NCBI RefSeq assembly: GCF_007164525.1
Contig: NZ_AP019791.1
Span: 1,723,501 to 1,787,500, forward strand
Direction of reading: 5' to 3'
Source of the DNA: Rubrobacter xylanophilus
GTDB lineage: Bacteria > Actinomycetota > Rubrobacteria > Rubrobacterales > Rubrobacteraceae
Length of the DNA: 64,000 bases
Position numbers and translations under genes: made by a program. Below, piece after piece: positions 49,264-54,071 of this stretch (within the stretch, counting starts at the first letter, position 1; the number at the start of each line of letters is the position of its first letter). Below the pieces are notes generated by a model. The model worked only from the letters and a program-made list of their open reading frames with translations. It was not told the DNA's origin and did no database searches.

Positions 49264-50187
49264 TCAGGCCTTTCTGTGCTCGGTGGTCACGGTGAAGGTG
49301 CCGTCGGGGAGCCGAACGATCCGGTAGTCACCGAAGAGGATGGGATCGGCGCGGCGCAGACAGAGGAAGAGTCGGACGGCGAGGTTGCGGATCTCGGTCT
49401 CCGCGTGCGCGTCGGCACGCATCTCGACGATGTGCCGCAGGGCCCGTACGTTGGCGGTGAAGACCATCGGGGCCTCGGTCTCGTTTGGCAGGAGCGAGCG
49501 GGAGGTCTGCTGGACCTTCTTGCGGGCGTCGGTGGCGCGGTCCGCCGCGAGGTGCTCCTCTCCAGCCTCCTGCCGTCGCAGCAGCCGATCGGCCAGCTCC
49601 TCGTACTCGGCCCGGGCGCGGTCTATCCGCTCCTCGAAGAGTCGGTGAAGCTCTTCGTCCTCTTGGTATTCCGGTCGTTCCACGAAGCGGAGCACGTTCC
49701 CCGCGACGTAGCGCTGGCTGACCTGGGAGAAGGCGGTGCCGGCCCGGTGCCGGACCAGCTCGTGGGTGACGCTGCGGCTCACGCCATATAGAAGGAAGCC
49801 GAAGCTGGCGTGCTCCAGCACGCTGCCGTGCCCCGCCGAGGTGAGCCGTTCGAAGTACCCTGCGGCGTCAGCGTTTTTCGTCCGCCGGGGGCCGAAGCTC
49901 ATGTAACACGTCTGGCCGGCGGTTTTGCAGAGCTGGGAGGAGTCGGGGAGCCGCACGGGGTCCGCCAGGTACCCGGTGAACCGCAGCTCCCGATCGAAGC
50001 CCTCCAGGAACCCGGCGAGCCCCGCCAGCCCGACCCGCGGACGGGAGATCATGACGACGCCCGGGGCCCTGAGATAGGGAGTCCCGGACCCCGTGCGATG
50101 GACCGGGCTGTGGATCGCCGGGAACCCCTCCTCTACCGTCCCGCCCAGCTCCTCGAACAGCTCCTCGGCAAGCCCGGTGGTCTCCAC
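49264..50187 (-). CDS. thyX: Flavin-dependent thymidylate synthase
   Basis: A 307-residue ThyX making dTMP from dUMP with FAD and methylene-THF. The signature RHRxxSxxxxSxRY appears as RHRAGTAFSQVSQRY, with HGSVLEHASFGFLLYG before it and RNLAVRLFLCLRRADPILF after. It has about 60 extra residues relative to many ThyX proteins, including an N-terminal extension. GTG 50187 is used (GGGAGGG just upstream) rather than the longer frame to 50295. Confidence 0.93.
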   Translation of the reverse strand: METTGLAEELFEELGGTVEEGFPAIHSPVHRTGSGTPYLRAPGVVMISRPRVGLAGLAGFLEGFDRELRFTGYLADPVRLPDSSQLCKTAGQTCYMSFGPRRTKNADAAGYFERLTSAGHGSVLEHASFGFLLYGVSRSVTHELVRHRAGTAFSQVSQRYVAGNVLRFVERPEYQEDEELHRLFEERIDRARAEYEELADRLLRRQEAGEEHLAADRATDARKKVQQTSRSLLPNETEAPMVFTANVRALRHIVEMRADAHAETEIRNLAVRLFLCLRRADPILFGDYRIVRLPDGTFTVTTEHRKA

Positions 50188-50254
50188 GGCCCTCCCTTCT
50201 TCGCCGGTCTCCTCCGGGAGAAGGTTACCCCATCCGGGCCGTGGTTTTGAGCCC

Positions 50255-51103
50255 TCAGACGGCCTCTGAGAGCCCGCAGCGCAGGGAGCCCGCATAGCGC
50301 CCGGAGCGGAGGGCGCGCAGGGCCTTGAGCTCGACCTGCCGGGCCCGCTCCTGGGAGATGCCCAGGATCTCGGAGACCTCCCGCAGGGTGCGGGCCCTCT
50401 CCCCGTCGAGGCCGTGCCGCATCCGCAGGACGCGGGCCTCTCGCTCGGGCAGAGAACGGACGGCCTCCAGCAACAGGTTGCGCCAGGGGCCGGCCTCGAC
50501 CCGGGCGTACTCCTCGGAGGCGGCCTCGTCGGGGAGGAGATCCCCCAGTTCGGCGCCGTCCTCCCCGTCCCCGAGCCGGGCGCTGATGCTGGAGATGGGT
50601 TGGGCCACCTCCCTGAGCCTGCGGGCCTCCTCCGGGCCGGTTCCCAGGCGCCCGGCCACCTCCTCGTCGGTGGGCTCGCGCCCGAGCTCGACGCTCAGCG
50701 CGCCCTCGGCCCGCCGGAGCCGGTAGACGCTGTCCACGACGTGGGCGGGGAGGCGCACGGTCCGCCCCTGATCCGCCACGGCCCGGGTTATGGCCTGCCT
50801 GATCCACCAGGTGGCGTACGTGGAGAACCTGTTCCCCATCTCGGGGTCGAACTTCTCGACGGCCCGGATGAGCCCGGCGTTGCCCTCCTGGATGAGATCC
50901 TCGAAGGGAACGCCCCGGCCCCGGTAGCGTTTGGCTATGGCGACGACGAGCCTGAGGTTGGACTCTATGAGCCTCCGGCGGGCCACCCCGTCCCCGGAAC
51001 GGGCCCGCCGGGAGAGCTCGACCTCCTCTTCGGCGGTGAGCAGCCTCCCGTACCGGATCCTGCCCAGATACTGCGTCAGAACGTCTTCGGTGGCGTAGGC
51101 CAT
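50255..51103 (-). CDS. Sigma-70 family alternative sigma factor (RpoD-like, group 2/3)
   Basis: A 282-residue sigma factor with regions 1.2-2.4 ([77 protein letters not shown]), region 3 and region 4 ([51 protein letters not shown]). Region 1.1 is missing, so it is an alternative rather than the principal factor. Last gene of a five-gene operon with a putative annealing protein, which is an unusual place for a sigma gene. ATG 51103 has GGGGGAGG upstream. Confidence 0.92.
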
Positions 51104-51122
51104 GTTCCTCCCCCTCTCATGC

Positions 51123-51407
51123 TCAGGCCGCGGGATGGGATCCGCCGGCCCGCGGTCCGGCGTGGGTCACGAACCTGCTCAGCACCCGCTCGTCGAGGCT
51201 GGAGGTGATGCGCCAGCTCCGGCCGCACACCCCACAGGCGAGCTCCAGCCGGCGCCGCTCCCCGGGCCTTCGCAGCACCTCCCGCTTGAGCGCCCGGATG
51301 CAGCAGACGGGAAGCGCCCACAGGTAGTACTCTTCGTCCGGGCTGGAGACCGGAGAGAGGACGGTGTCCGGCCGCAGGGTCCTTCTCTTTCTCGCTCCGG
51401 ATTTCAT
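51123..51407 (-). CDS. Small basic Cys-containing protein
   Basis: A 94-residue protein starting [20 protein letters not shown], with [39 protein letters not shown]. The ACGVCGRSW knuckle plus the upstream CC pair could bind zinc. ATG 51407 follows GGAGGAAGG; GTG 51413 would add two residues. No family recognised. Lies 19 nt before the sigma gene and may act with it. Confidence 0.6.
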
Positions 51408-51422
51408 GAGCACCTTCCTCCC

Positions 51423-51596
51423 TCACCCCCTGATACGCTTCGCCAGAAGCCCCAAAACCCGCTGCAACTCCCACCGCAGGAGATATCCCCACCAACCGCC
51501 ACCCCCCTTCGACACCGCGGCGAGCCGGGCTTCCGCGGCCTCCTGAATGAGCGCCCCGCTCCTCTCCCGCATGAACCGCGGGTCCATCCCGTGCAT
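51423..51596 (-). CDS. Small ORF of unknown function
   Basis: A 57-residue ORF with start ATG 51596 preceded by GGAGGGAGG. Sequence features: MHGMDPRFMRERSGALIQEA (a charged, helical start), a GGGGWWGYLLRW stretch and basic end LLAKRIRG. The second half is amphipathic. It sits 21 nt after and 15 nt before its neighbours, consistent with a genuine operon member. No homologue known to me. Confidence 0.5.
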   Translation of the reverse strand: MHGMDPRFMRERSGALIQEAAEARLAAVSKGGGGWWGYLLRWELQRVLGLLAKRIRG

Positions 51597-51617
51597 TTTC
51601 GTCCTCCCTCCCGCCGC

Positions 51618-51821
51618 TCAGGCAGCTCCTTTGCTCTCCTCCGGCCCTCCCTCGGTGAAGGCGCACCCCTCGGGCTCGACGGCGGGGGGCGCCTGCCACA
51701 TCGCCCCGCACACCGGGCACTCGAATGCGCCCTGAAAGGAGCGGGCGCTCCGCCGGCAACAGCCGGGAAGATCCTGTTCGTAGAGCGCCTCCCCGCCCAT
51801 GGCCGCCATCCAGACCCGCAT
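51618..51821 (-). CDS. Small Cys-rich (zinc-ribbon-like) protein
   Basis: A 67-residue protein: MRVWMAAMGGEALYEQDL then CCRRSARSFQGAFECPVCGAMWQAPPAV and a Glu-rich tail with one more Cys. The FECPVCGAMW knuckle with the upstream CC pair suggests one zinc-binding module. The start overlaps the stop of the annealing-like gene (TGATG), so it is translationally coupled. Function unknown. Confidence 0.6.
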   Translation of the reverse strand: MRVWMAAMGGEALYEQDLPGCCRRSARSFQGAFECPVCGAMWQAPPAVEPEGCAFTEGGPEESKGAA

Positions 51822-52387
51822 CACGCCGCCTTCCCGGAGAGCCGGCCGATCCACTCGCTGGCCTCCTCGCGGGTGAGCTCGGCGAGCGGCTTGCCGACCA
51901 TCTCCTCGAACTTGGGGACGCCATCCTCGACGGCGTCGGCGATGAGGGCCTCGAGATAGTTGAGCTGCTTGCGGGTGGCCGGCAGCCCCCCCTTGCCGTC
52001 CTGAGCCCGGGAGGCCGCCCGCTGCGGCTCCGCCTCCCGGCCGGACTCCACGACCTCCTCGTCCCCGAGCTCCTCGTAGGCGGTTACCCCGACGTTGATC
52101 GCGTCCCGCAGAGCCCGCGCCTTCGCCCGCGTCTCGGCCATCCGGATGAGATGCGGCGCTATGTGCCGGCCCACGTTCGCGGGAGAAGCATCCCCGATCC
52201 CGCTGAACTTCCCGTCCTCCGTCCTGACCACCGCCCTCACGATGGCCACCTCGCCGTTCTCCGGGCTCGGCGCCTGTAGAAGCTCGGTCTCTATGCTCCT
52301 CAAACCCCGCGCATGAGCCTCCTCCAGAAGCCCCGCATACAGCACGAACCGCTTCCCCTGACGCTCGATCATGTACTCCTCGCGCAT
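51821..52387 (-). CDS. Putative single-strand-annealing/Rad52-like protein
   Basis: A 188-residue soluble protein. Residues about 20-105 (IETELLQAPSPENGEVAIVRAVV, GIGDASPANVGRHIAPHLIR, MAETRAKARALRDAINVGV) resemble stretches I associate with Rad52/Erf-like annealing proteins of phages and thermophiles, especially the AETRAKARALR helix. After a charged linker, residues 135-188 (ATRKQLNYLEALIADAVEDG, LTREEASEWIGRLSG) form a helical module seen in phage-type recombination proteins. Assignment is by motif memory, not proof. ATG 52387 follows GGAGG; the operon promoter carries an inverted repeat at 52429-52446. Confidence 0.55.
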   Translation of the reverse strand: MREEYMIERQGKRFVLYAGLLEEAHARGLRSIETELLQAPSPENGEVAIVRAVVRTEDGKFSGIGDASPANVGRHIAPHLIRMAETRAKARALRDAINVGVTAYEELGDEEVVESGREAEPQRAASRAQDGKGGLPATRKQLNYLEALIADAVEDGVPKFEEMVGKPLAELTREEASEWIGRLSGKAA

Positions 52388-52428
52388 CACTACACCTCCT
52401 CCGAGGCCATCACACTGTCGCTGGTTTC

Positions 52429-52446
52429 TTCACTGAATTTAGTGAA
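52429..52446. promoter_or_regulatory. Operator at the annealing-protein/sigma operon promoter
   Basis: TTCACTGAATTTAGTGAA: 6-bp perfect arms TTCACT/AGTGAA around an AT-rich centre. On the minus strand it contains TAAATT, a possible -10, about 45-55 nt before the first gene. Nearly the same repeat occurs at the start of the DUF4325-HTH gene (53033-53048), strongly suggesting a common regulator. Confidence 0.65.
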
Positions 52447-52466
52447 ATAAAGGTTAAATAAAAGCA

Positions 52467-53054
52467 TCAGGCGATCCTCTCGTAGACGTACTGGCGACCG
52501 CTCTGGCCGGGCCTGCGGCCGACGAGGCCGAGCCTGAAGAGGTTGGTGGCCCGGTTGTTGCAGGCGGTCTGGTTGAGGCCGAGGCGCTTTGCGAGCTCGG
52601 CGGTGGTGATACTGCCGGCGCTGTGGATGGTCTGCAGGGTTTCGAGCAGGTGGTCTTTTATACTGCCTACCACCGAGGGCTCGCCGCCGGGCTCGGGGAC
52701 CCGGATCATGGCGAGAGAACGCTGGCGGAGCGAGGCCTCCACGTTCTCCAGAAGATCGCGATCCTCCTCCACCAGCACCACCTTCCGATCGCCGTACTCC
52801 CCGGCGGACACCCGGGAGACCAGTATCCCCAGCGCCTCGTCCGCGAACGAGTAGTCCATCATCTCCACACCCCGGGTGTCCACGTAAAGTACACCACCCT
52901 TCGGAAGCCCCGAAAGAGCCTCCTCCAGCGCCTCCCGGACCTCCCGGCCCGCCCGGCGGGTCACCATCAGCCGCCCCGCCTCCGAGACCTCGAAGACCCG
53001 CCGCACCCGATCCTCAGCCATGGACCCCGTTCTCACTGTATTCAGTGAAATCAT
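52467..53054 (-). CDS. DUF4325 (STAS-like) protein with C-terminal winged helix
   Basis: A 195-residue protein. Residues about 15-125 are a STAS-like DUF4325 domain (GGVLYVDTRGVEMMDYSFADEALGILVSRV; the SFADE motif is typical). Residues 130-195 form a winged helix: HLLETLQTIHSAGSITTAELAKRLGLNQTACNNRATNLFRLGLVGRR. This combines a signalling fold with a DNA-binding domain. ATG 53054 lies 8 nt after TACAAT, so it is probably leaderless; ATG 53021 is an alternative. An inverted repeat overlaps its first codons, consistent with autoregulation. Confidence 0.78.
   Translation of the reverse strand: MISLNTVRTGSMAEDRVRRVFEVSEAGRLMVTRRAGREVREALEEALSGLPKGGVLYVDTRGVEMMDYSFADEALGILVSRVSAGEYGDRKVVLVEEDRDLLENVEASLRQRSLAMIRVPEPGGEPSVVGSIKDHLLETLQTIHSAGSITTAELAKRLGLNQTACNNRATNLFRLGLVGRRPGQSGRQYVYERIA
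53033..53048. promoter_or_regulatory. Operator overlapping the first codons of the DUF4325-HTH gene
   Basis: TCACTGTATTCAGTGA: 6-bp arms TCACTG/CAGTGA. On the minus strand it reads TTCACTGAATACAGTGAG, matching the operator at 52429-52446 in 14 of 18 positions. It begins about 6 nt downstream of the predicted leaderless start, where a bound protein would block polymerase. Confidence 0.65.
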
Positions 53055-53062
53055 TTGAAGGC

Positions 53063-53091
53063 ATTGTAACCGGTACGGGGTCGGGATTCAA
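53063..53091 (-). promoter_or_regulatory. Promoter of the DUF4325-HTH gene
   Basis: Minus-strand TTGAAT (53086-53091), 17-bp spacer, TACAAT (53063-53068), close to the housekeeping consensus. The TACAAT ends 8 nt before ATG 53054, which would place the transcription start at or very near the start codon. Confidence 0.7.
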
Positions 53092-53119
53092 CGTCGTTTG
53101 CGCTGGCATGTGGAACATT

Positions 53120-54031
53120 TTAGGCGTTTTTGGTGGGGAGGTGTCGGGGGAGGGAGACGCGGACGAAGGTACCGGGGAAGAGCGGGACGTTACGGGAGTT
53201 TTTACGGTTTCTGTAGACGGTGATCCTTCCGGAGCCCGAGCGGATGGAGAGCGATCCGCCGGCCTCGGCGGCCTTCTGGGCCACGAGCGTGAGTCCGCCG
53301 CCCCGGCCGAGCTCGCCGGTGGCGGAGACCCCCATCTTCAGGGCGTGGCGGAGGGCATCGTTGTCGGTGGTGGTGTATCTGGCGTGGGCCGGGTTGCGGG
53401 AGAGGGTTTCGCGGACGCCGACCCCGCCGTCGGCGATGGCGACCAGCACCTCCTCCCCGCGCCGGCGGGCGCCGCTGACGATGTGGTGGTAGGCCTGAAC
53501 GGCGGCGTAGGCGCCGAAGGAGGAAGCGCCGTGTTCGGCGGCGTTGGCGCAGATCTCCGAGAGGGTGGAGCAGATGGCCACCCGCTCCTTCAGCAGGTAC
53601 CCCTGGCGCTCCAGGATCTCCGAGATACGCTCGATGATCGCCGGGATCTCACCCTCGTCGTGGAAGTTGACCAGCTCCTGCAGGGTGCCCGGGTTGTGGC
53701 GGCGGCGCTCCTCGAACGGGGCGACGTCCACGTTGGTTCGCACCCGCCCGCCGAACAGCCGGAAGAAGTTCATTCGCTCCAGGTAGGCCGGGACGTCGTC
53801 TCCCGCAAGCAGCAGGGTCACCTCCTCGGAGCGCGGGATCGCGTACTCCAGCAGCGCCGCGAGCCCGCACAGTCCGGCAGGCTCGACGAACTCCACGGCG
53901 CGCAGGTCCAGCACCACCGGCTCGCCCGCGAGCCCCGAGCATCCTTCGAAGGCCGGGTCCAGGCTGCCCAGCGTGAGCACCCCGCTCATCGCGCCGCGGC
54001 GGCGCACATCCAGCCTGAGCAAAGTCTCCAT
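53120..54031 (-). CDS. STAS-GHKL ATPase fusion (anti-sigma-factor-like)
   Basis: A 303-residue cytosolic protein. N-terminal STAS-like domain (VVLDLRAVEFVEPAGLCGLAALLEYAI), then from about residue 140 a GHKL/HATPase_c domain: N-box SEICANAAEHG, G1 VLVAIADGGVGV, G2 GELGRGGGLTLVAQKAAEAGG. It has no His-phosphotransfer domain, so it resembles RsbW/SpoIIAB-type kinases rather than sensor kinases, but fused to a STAS domain. TACAAT (54040-54045) ends 8 nt before ATG 54031, giving a leaderless start. Adjacent to the DUF4325-HTH gene, which carries a matching STAS-like domain. Confidence 0.8.
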   Translation of the reverse strand: METLLRLDVRRRGAMSGVLTLGSLDPAFEGCSGLAGEPVVLDLRAVEFVEPAGLCGLAALLEYAIPRSEEVTLLLAGDDVPAYLERMNFFRLFGGRVRTNVDVAPFEERRRHNPGTLQELVNFHDEGEIPAIIERISEILERQGYLLKERVAICSTLSEICANAAEHGASSFGAYAAVQAYHHIVSGARRRGEEVLVAIADGGVGVRETLSRNPAHARYTTTDNDALRHALKMGVSATGELGRGGGLTLVAQKAAEAGGSLSIRSGSGRITVYRNRKNSRNVPLFPGTFVRVSLPRHLPTKNA

Positions 54032-54071
54032 CGATGCCAATTGTAGCCCGGGATACGGAATGTGCCCCCGC

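Follow-up and report, generated by a model that had tools for sequence, protein, structure and literature searches.

The DNA analysed, here called the window, was a stretch of 64,000 nucleotides from Rubrobacter xylanophilus, in which a STAS-GHKL kinase gene, a gene for a STAS-winged-helix (STAS-wHTH) protein, and an operon with a sigma factor gene in last place were located in this order on the minus strand (Table 1). The kinase and regulator genes and the operon were found where the first-pass annotation had placed them. The operon had been described as containing five genes; four of these were conserved, whereas for the fifth ORF (57 aa) only one of 27 relatives, the nearest, offered a convincing homologue. 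Since ThyX homology in relatives mostly begins at approximately residue 27-39, the true start of the ThyX gene is probably located after the sigma stop codon, and the gene is possibly co-transcribed with the sigma operon. Of nine proteins from the window that were compared with Pfam (E-values up to 1), none matched a PIN-type (VapC-like) family.

Table 1. Positions of genes and predicted regulatory elements, numbered within the window.
Feature	Position	Strand	Remarks
STAS-GHKL kinase, CapK-like, without N-terminal HTH	53120..54040	-	exact start codon uncertain
-35 element TTGAAT, predicted STAS-wHTH promoter	53086..53091	-	17-bp spacing to -10
-10 element TACAAT, predicted STAS-wHTH promoter	53063..53068	-	8 nt 5' of ATG
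Operator 1 (predicted), over codons 2-8 of STAS-wHTH gene	53032..53049	.	- strand TTCACTGAATACAGTGAG
STAS-winged-helix protein, CapS-like putative repressor	52467..53054	-	S69 aligns with CapS S54
Operator 2 (predicted), gap ahead of annealing/sigma operon	52429..52446	.	+ strand TTCACTGAATTTAGTGAA
Putative ssDNA-annealing/recombination protein, 189 aa	51821..52390	-	conserved start = second M, 52387
Small Cys-rich protein, 78 aa, conserved operon gene 2	51618..51854	-	
57-aa ORF, probably not a conserved gene	51423..51596	-	clear homologue in nearest relative (L009) only
Small Cys-rich protein, 96 aa, conserved operon gene 3	51123..51413	-	
Sigma-70 factor, regions 1.2-4, RpoD-like, conserved operon gene 4	50255..51103	-	
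ThyX, 3' of sigma gene	49264..50295	-	Pfam; often there in relatives

Conservation of genes and operators

The STAS-wHTH protein was present in 34 of 39 genomes of the class, and in all 22 of those of high quality. The search for the neighbour pair across genomes, which had been proposed as a check in the first-pass annotation, located the kinase gene on the same strand 5' of the STAS-wHTH gene, with a gap of at most 727 bp, in 27/27 Rubrobacteraceae-type loci, two of which were cut by contig ends. The order annealing-small-small-sigma followed 3' in 26 of these 27 loci; in the remaining locus the contig ended first (26/26 informative). GNAT, HD-domain, and ThyX genes were retained neighbours of the cluster in many loci.

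An inverted repeat had been reported at both the regulator gene and the operon, and both copies were recovered at their exact positions with 0 mismatches each. That the repeat is common to the two places was upheld, with the correction that the first copy does not occupy an ordinary promoter between genes: operator 1 is positioned directly behind a -35/-10 promoter and inside the conserved, ATG-started STAS-wHTH ORF. The STAS-wHTH mRNA is probably leaderless, or nearly so, because the -10 element is so close to the ATG. When up to three mismatches were allowed, the 64-kb window contained five matches versus 0.10 expected, four of which represented the two sites on both strands, and five or more matches were obtained in 0 of 100 shuffled windows. 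Among the 39 genomes, 71 exact operator sites were identified, of which 70 were located at three places (31 where the STAS-wHTH gene starts, 25 in the gap preceding the annealing gene, and 14 preceding a third gene) and one elsewhere; a reversed control pattern matched once in the same genomes. The constraint on operator 1 was shown computationally to act at the DNA level: the codons beneath it were TCA in 28/28 cases, versus 3.4% of Ser codons in the genes of the cluster, and ACA in 28/28 cases, versus 5.0% of Thr codons.

The third place is the promoter of an unstudied gene of 176 aa, where the operator is located in or beside the -35/-10 spacer, directly before TATAAT. After one of 33 loci had been dropped for too little upstream sequence, an operator with 0-2 mismatches was present in 18 of the 32 evaluable third-gene promoters, and at least 4 mismatches were counted in the other 14; the best scores of the control were 4-6. 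Promoter scoring, which carries no shuffled control, gave no clear -10 for the annealing gene, so that direct repression is less obvious at this promoter than at the other two. Looser operator searches were noisier in the control, with six control matches in a one-mismatch search of six genomes and four, versus ten operator matches, in a three-mismatch search of the genome studied here. For this reason, inexact sites elsewhere in the genomes, for example G000:C1:146076 near another sigma gene, were discounted and taken as chance. The SOS box GAACN4GTTC was absent from the window. The predicted regulon obtained by these computations has three members, namely the regulator gene, the annealing/sigma operon, and the third gene. 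That a single circuit joins the kinase-regulator pair to the operon, with the STAS-wHTH protein regulating both its own gene and the sigma operon, is strongly supported, because genes and operators alike are conserved across the family.

Relatedness of the proteins to CapK and CapS

The arrangement had been considered novel, a claim that does not stand, as it is that of CapK/CapS, published in June 2026 (Chambers et al., EMBO J. 2026, PMC13373217; PDB 9z71, 9z72, 9z73). CapK is an ssDNA-activated GHKL kinase, and CapS is a STAS-wHTH repressor acting on two operators and phosphorylated by CapK; ssDNA-stimulated phosphorylation, loss of the dimer, and induction by DNA damage were reported, and an immune operon was located 3' in 348/443 cases (PMC13373217).

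The regulator had been annotated as a DUF4325-winged helix protein. The winged helix passed the Pfam cut-offs (MarR and HTH_24), and DUF4325 was marginal (16.3 bits versus a cut-off of 23). The STAS-wHTH family profile retrieved solved CapS over almost its full length (9z71, E 3.6e-7; 9z72, E 1.3e-5), and alignment with E. roggenkampii CapS using hhalign gave an E-value of 1.3e-7. S69, which aligns with the CapS phosphoserine, was invariant in 21 alignment rows and was positioned at the start of helix 68-83, the second STAS helix, in the predicted structure (pLDDT 85.9). At the positions of CapS N145 and K151 the Rubrobacter protein has A164 and T170; the nearby N166/N167 are invariant. In a structure comparison the model aligned with Listeria stressosome 7b0u (Z 10.1, 104 aligned) and RsbS 6jhk (Z 9.9, 104 aligned), with MarR-type wHTH matched in most rows. 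Foldseek returned nothing at E 0.001 or better for this model, its best rows being MarR-type wHTH. CapS entries were not among the structural matches listed, from a library reaching to April 2026, and their absence is no evidence. The core STAS-wHTH proteins formed one group (support 94/95) in a tree that carries a long-branch warning.

The kinase (306 aa) begins at its STAS domain. Both domains of the STAS-GHKL fusion described earlier were detected by Pfam, all with scores under the Pfam cut-offs (HATPase_c 1.6e-5, STAS 0.0069, STAS_2 0.005). The kinase profile matched CapK with an E-value of 5.8e-10, versus 0.0031 and 0.11 for two RsbW-like kinases (PF13581) that this genome also encodes, and shared with CapK the motif YLxRxxFF, the N-box (N166 = CapK N218), and RGxGL. 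PHROG 3364 was matched by both the core kinase (98.3 bits) and CapK (48.5 bits), and by the RsbW-like controls at 12 and 20.9 bits only. The ssDNA-stacking aromatic is W68 in CapK and F54 in VapK (PMC13373217). On the basis of sequence alignment alone, CapK W68 falls in a gap of both alignments to the core kinases, and none of 19 core kinase rows has an aromatic residue (F, W, or Y) in the region expected to face it, residues 14-30; the nearest aromatic, F31, was present in 18 of 19 rows and aligns with CapK F74. The signal may therefore be something other than ssDNA, or ssDNA may bind in another manner. Near CapK K237/K239, some of the basic residues are conserved. A search of PDB sequences with the kinase profile gave no match at 0.01, the kinase tree had long branches and no resolved branching order, and searches of phage and plasmid records with the core kinase gave distant partial matches only (7 and 3 records, respectively).

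For the product of operon gene 1, the label of annealing protein gained indirect support from genomic context and none from Pfam, in which no annealing family, or any other, matched. Homologues were located in phage replication/recombination regions, one adjoining SSB, and a paralogue in the same genome comes after DnaD-like and DnaC/IstB-like genes; the protein is considered a putative ssDNA-annealing/recombination protein. Its predicted structure was poor (pLDDT 60.6), and nothing significant was found using Foldseek (best E 0.23) or a PDB profile search (best E 0.46). A match to the phage Sak annealing protein 8pq8 at E 0.9 was not counted as evidence. The sigma factor was scored best by RpoD models (NF006666, 284.8 bits, itself under the cut-off of that model) and gave 132.6 bits with the SigB/F/G model TIGR02980 (cut-off 234.35); we classify it as RpoD-like, group 2.

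Proposed mechanism and alternatives

The locus is likely to encode a CapK/CapS-type kinase-repressor switch that was domesticated as a core regulator of the Rubrobacteraceae and that probably answers DNA damage. As in CapK/CapS, the STAS-GHKL kinase gene is followed by the STAS-wHTH gene, the phosphoserine position and the N-box Asn are shared, and palindromes occur both at the promoter of the regulator itself and ahead of the operon that follows. The palindrome has the 18-bp length of the CapS 'wide palindrome' (TTAA-N10-TTAA; PMC13373217), but the half-site is TTCACT rather than TTAA, and both sites have equal spacing, with no 'narrow' site. Unlike CapK, the Rubrobacter kinase lacks the N-terminal HTH, the deletion of which was without effect in the published assay (PMC13373217), and seems to lack a clear counterpart of W68. 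The locus also differs from CapKS in that it is core in its family rather than immune-linked, its targets being the annealing/sigma operon and a distant third gene. VapKSC resembles it in having a kinase without HTH and a STAS partner with a conserved Ser/Thr, but VapS lacks a wHTH and keeps a VapC toxin bound (PMC13373217).

In resting cells, a STAS-wHTH dimer would occupy the 18-bp operators and repress its own gene, with the operator immediately past the transcription start, as well as the operon for the annealing protein, small proteins, and sigma factor and, in approximately half of the genomes, the third gene. Under stress, most likely ssDNA arising from DNA damage or desiccation, the kinase would become active and phosphorylate S69, the dimer would come apart, and all targets would be induced; ssDNA would then be the substrate of the annealing protein, and the response would be widened by the sigma factor. 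Repression, phosphorylation, and dimer loss are inferred by analogy with CapKS, and ssDNA as the signal, the annealing activity, and a wider sigma regulon more weakly.

The same switch could instead respond to heat, desiccation, a ligand, or the ATP level, with the annealing operon as one of several stress outputs. This is unlikely in our estimation: the lack of an aromatic at residues 14-30 in every core kinase row, the missing HTH, and a sigma output suggestive of general stress favour it, but a target gene resembling a DNA-transaction protein and the partly kept basic residues count against it. In partner switching of the SpoIIAB/SpoIIAA and RsbW/RsbV type, the sigma factor is held by the kinase. 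In those systems, too, a GHKL kinase phosphorylates a STAS serine (also PMC13373217), as is predicted here, but the Rubrobacter STAS module carries a fused DNA-binding domain. The families of kinase and STAS protein and the sigma gene in the operon would suit a classical scheme with the GHKL protein as anti-sigma factor and the STAS-wHTH protein as antagonist; we consider this very improbable, given a sigma factor that is RpoD-like and under the SigB/F/G cut-off, a wHTH and conserved operators that such a model does not need, and a kinase nearer to CapK than to the two RsbW-like proteins.

Equally little credence is given to a model in which the STAS-wHTH protein activates the annealing operon, to a degree tuned by phosphorylation, and represses only its own gene. 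The annealing promoter without a clear -10, and an operator where core promoter elements are expected, are consistent with activation, but CapS represses at the corresponding place (PMC13373217), and the third-gene operator directly before TATAAT fits repression. Finally, the operon might be an unrecognised immune operon within an ordinary CapKS-guarded defence locus. HTH-less Actinomycetota pairs, in which STAS-GHKL likewise adjoins STAS-wHTH, do have defence-type neighbours: ThiF for a Janibacter plasmid (NZ_CP046475.1), BrxL for the second copy in R. marinus (L042), and an E1-like gene for L080. The Rubrobacter locus differs from these in being core in 22/22 good genomes and in retaining GNAT, HD-domain, and ThyX genes as neighbours in many loci, its STAS-wHTH proteins form one group, and PADLOC gave no match for the annealing protein, the one operon product scanned; an immune role for the operon is thus extremely improbable.

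Possible relation to DNA damage responses

CapKS-type pairs have so far been described mostly beside bacterial immune genes. As far as literature searches reach, a core circuit acting on a DNA-handling/sigma operon is new, the arrangement itself being known from CapK/CapS. According to passages of its genome paper (PMC4148983), the extremely radiation-resistant R. radiotolerans RSPS-4 has neither LexA nor irrE, pprA, or ddrA-D, which raises the question of how its repair genes are switched on and gives the switch described here its importance. It is possible, and proposed tentatively, that an ssDNA-sensing CapK/CapS-type switch is the core DNA-damage/desiccation response of the Rubrobacteraceae, independent of LexA and IrrE, driving an annealing protein, a dedicated response-widening sigma factor, and, in approximately half of the genomes, a new 176-aa effector. 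If this is true, one and the same family would supply both immune-linked regulators and a core regulator of stress. The switch is defined and conserved, the regulon and phosphosite predicted for it are a small set of targets and a single serine, and it is accessible to the assays established for CapKS. It need not be the sole regulator of damage responses, because LexA homologues over the cut-off occur, patchily, in 28 of the 39 class genomes, and three LexA-like proteins in the present genome ruled out that it is LexA-free.

Conservation of the locus

The core locus has a conserved kinase-regulator pair homologous to CapK/CapS (CapKS) and conserved operators, and its predicted regulon is small. 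The window spans G000:C1:1723501-1787500 of a complete 3.02-Mb genome. On its minus strand, the genes were arranged in the order GNAT, STAS-GHKL kinase, STAS-wHTH regulator, 189-aa protein, two small Cys-rich proteins, sigma factor, and ThyX. A scan of named genomes for STAS-wHTH yielded 30 loci, comprising 27 of Rubrobacteraceae type, two from Abditibacteriota, and one from another bacterium. The pairing that the first-pass annotation had proposed to look for was recovered in all 27 Rubrobacteraceae-type loci (two of which end at contig ends), with STAS-GHKL upstream on the same strand and no more than 727 bp away. Downstream, 26 of these loci continue with the 189-aa gene, the two small genes, and the sigma gene, and the contig of the 27th stops earlier. 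At the three remaining loci (L036, L037, and L038), STAS-wHTH was present without the operon; no other window genes were found there (ORFs of L036 and L038 inspected), and no adjoining STAS-GHKL gene was seen in L036 and L038. In one locus (L010), a gap of about 1 kb splits the ThyX homology at residue ~130, and the interruption is possibly an intein.

Among 39 genomes of the class, 22 were classed as good (completeness ≥90%, contamination ≤5%); this set is not independent of the named-genome loci because the two share genomes (R. marinus is in both). The STAS-wHTH profile matched 34 of the 39 and all 22 good genomes, whereas LexA was patchy, with a match in 19 of the 22. The 189-aa profile matched 38 genomes, some via a paralogue only, and the operon-type copy (E < 1e-95) was present in 33, including every good one. 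In a phylum-wide sample of 296 genomes, the matches at 1e-12 were 25 members of the family plus a single genome from outside it.

Coordinates of features at and beyond the core locus (G000, R. xylanophilus; L-numbers, fetched loci)
Feature	Genome or window position	Locus position
STAS-GHKL protein	window 53120-54040	
Promoter of the 189-aa operon	window 52395-52470	
176-aa gene (outside the window)	G000:C1:1709241-1709768	L004:1537-2067
Operator of the 176-aa gene	G000:C1:1709205	
Operator before an unrelated small ORF	G022:C40:15457	L079
189-aa paralogue	G000, 2.29 Mb	L041:4111-6237
Second pair of R. marinus	G028	L042:5203-6751
Actinobacterial tandem row		L080:2021-6478
Interrupted ThyX homology		L010:4625-6637

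Operators and predicted regulon

The two inverted repeats that the first-pass annotation had described were both confirmed exactly in sequence and position. The STAS-wHTH promoter has the form TTG-17-TANNNT and is followed about 8 nt further by a conserved ATG (28 of 28), and codons 2-8 of the gene lie under operator 1. Within these codons TCA and ACA were each used in 28 of 28 sequences, against a cluster-gene background of 3.4% of Ser and 5.0% of Thr codons. The operator-1 codons are thus conserved at the DNA level as well as at the protein level. With a relaxed pattern, 27 of 27 loci (window counted) showed a second palindrome between the STAS-wHTH and 189-aa genes. In the promoter of this operon, the operator is flanked by TTTTTG and GATA, which are conserved in relatives. 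This promoter shows no clear -10 and may be recognised by a different sigma factor, potentially the one encoded in the operon.

A search with the exact pattern YTCACTN5CAGTGAR gave 71 sites in the 39 genomes, of which 31 fall on the start of the STAS-wHTH gene, 25 between that gene and the 189-aa gene, 14 upstream of a distant third gene, and one elsewhere; the reversed control pattern gave one match. With one mismatch allowed, the control matched six times in six genomes, and the argument therefore relies on perfect matches. That one narrow and specific set of targets keeps recurring is the strongest evidence for an operator role of the repeats, which is predicted from sequence. The product of the third gene is a 176-aa protein with no Pfam match and no known family; the gene was found at threshold in 34 of 39 class genomes (one match weak, 2.9e-4). 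Of 32 promoters of this gene, 18 have the operator (0-2 mismatches), placed directly upstream of a TATAAT-like box, and 14 lack it; the copy in R. xylanophilus has one mismatch. One exact operator (L079) precedes a small, unrelated ORF that has its own TATAAT-like box.

Relation to CapK/CapS

The arrangement had been regarded as new; its kind has been known since 2026 from CapK/CapS. As described in the main text of that report, ssDNA activates CapK, which phosphorylates CapS at S54, and the phosphorylated CapS dimer dissociates, freeing two palindromes, which are located in the capK-capS interval and ahead of the following operon (PMC13373217). The terms 'Rubrobacter', 'Actinomyc', and 'Actinobact' are absent from that main text. 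Literature searches on Rubrobacter and STAS, Rubrobacter transcriptome and DNA damage, and CapK and CapS returned no paper on this locus among the matches listed.

The STAS-wHTH family profile matched the solved CapS structures (9z71, 9z72/9z73) along almost their entire length. Compared with the E. roggenkampii pair, taken from a plasmid record, the core kinase gave an E-value of 5.8e-10 and the regulator 1.3e-7; two RsbW-like kinases of R. xylanophilus gave 0.0031 and 0.11 against the same kinase profile. For PHROG 3364, the core kinase scored 98.3 bits, CapK 48.5, and the RsbW-like controls 12 and 20.9. S69 of STAS-wHTH aligns on S54 of CapS, N166 of the core kinase aligns on N218 of CapK, and the operator, at 18 bp, is as long as the 'wide' CapS palindrome. 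However, the half-sites differ, and no CapS-type narrow site was seen at the core locus. The HTH domain of CapK is missing from the core kinase, as it is from VapK and from the kinases of Janibacter, R. marinus, and L080. In the alignment, W68 of CapK is opposite a gap; residues 14-30 contain no aromatic in any core kinase, and the nearest is F31 (18 of 19 rows). ssDNA sensing by the core kinase is thus uncertain. The downstream operon is not among the known immune operons, and core STAS-wHTH sequences formed one group apart from defence-linked ones (support 94/95, 98% of bootstraps, with a long-branch warning); branching in the kinase tree was not resolved. The STAS-GHKL protein of the window also matched the PADLOC model for DrmA (DISARM) over ~200 residues (E 2.7e-8).

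By analogy with CapKS, STAS-wHTH would repress its targets until phosphorylation released them, and the signal, judged also from the nature of the target, may be ssDNA or damage. R. radiotolerans RSPS-4 has been reported without LexA, irrE, pprA, and ddrA-D (PMC4148983).

Other pairs were observed elsewhere. In R. marinus, a second STAS-GHKL and STAS-wHTH pair adjoins a 330-aa gene and BrxL; it is a defence-type CapKS-like locus sharing a genome with the core locus. A similar pair (L043) lies near an integrase-like gene. An actinobacterial row (L080) carries STAS-GHKL, STAS-wHTH, and a further STAS-GHKL-like gene in tandem, continuing with a small protein and then an E1-like gene.

The output operon

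Phage relatives of the 189-aa protein include that of Rossellomorea phage phiT1 (42.6% identical over query residues 1-146), which carries a DNA repair and recombination annotation and is encoded in a stretch that also has replication and helicase genes. In Paenibacillus phage API480, the gene of the relative (46.3%, residues 6-126) adjoins the SSB gene, with primase and polymerase next. A second, divergent family copy is present in 34 of 39 class genomes, its gene context being known from R. xylanophilus, where the paralogue is part of a gene row that includes DnaD-like and DnaC/IstB-like genes. These contexts support a predicted action of the 189-aa protein on ssDNA, with annealing as a putative activity. 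Its ETRAKARALRD motif may resemble Rad52/ERF-type proteins.

Regions 1.2, 2, 3, and 4 are all present in the sigma factor, and its best-scoring models were those of RpoD, yet under their cut-offs. It shares 47-51% identity with four other RpoD-like sigmas of R. xylanophilus, in whose genome sigma region 2 was detected at 17 places, and we classify it as group 2.
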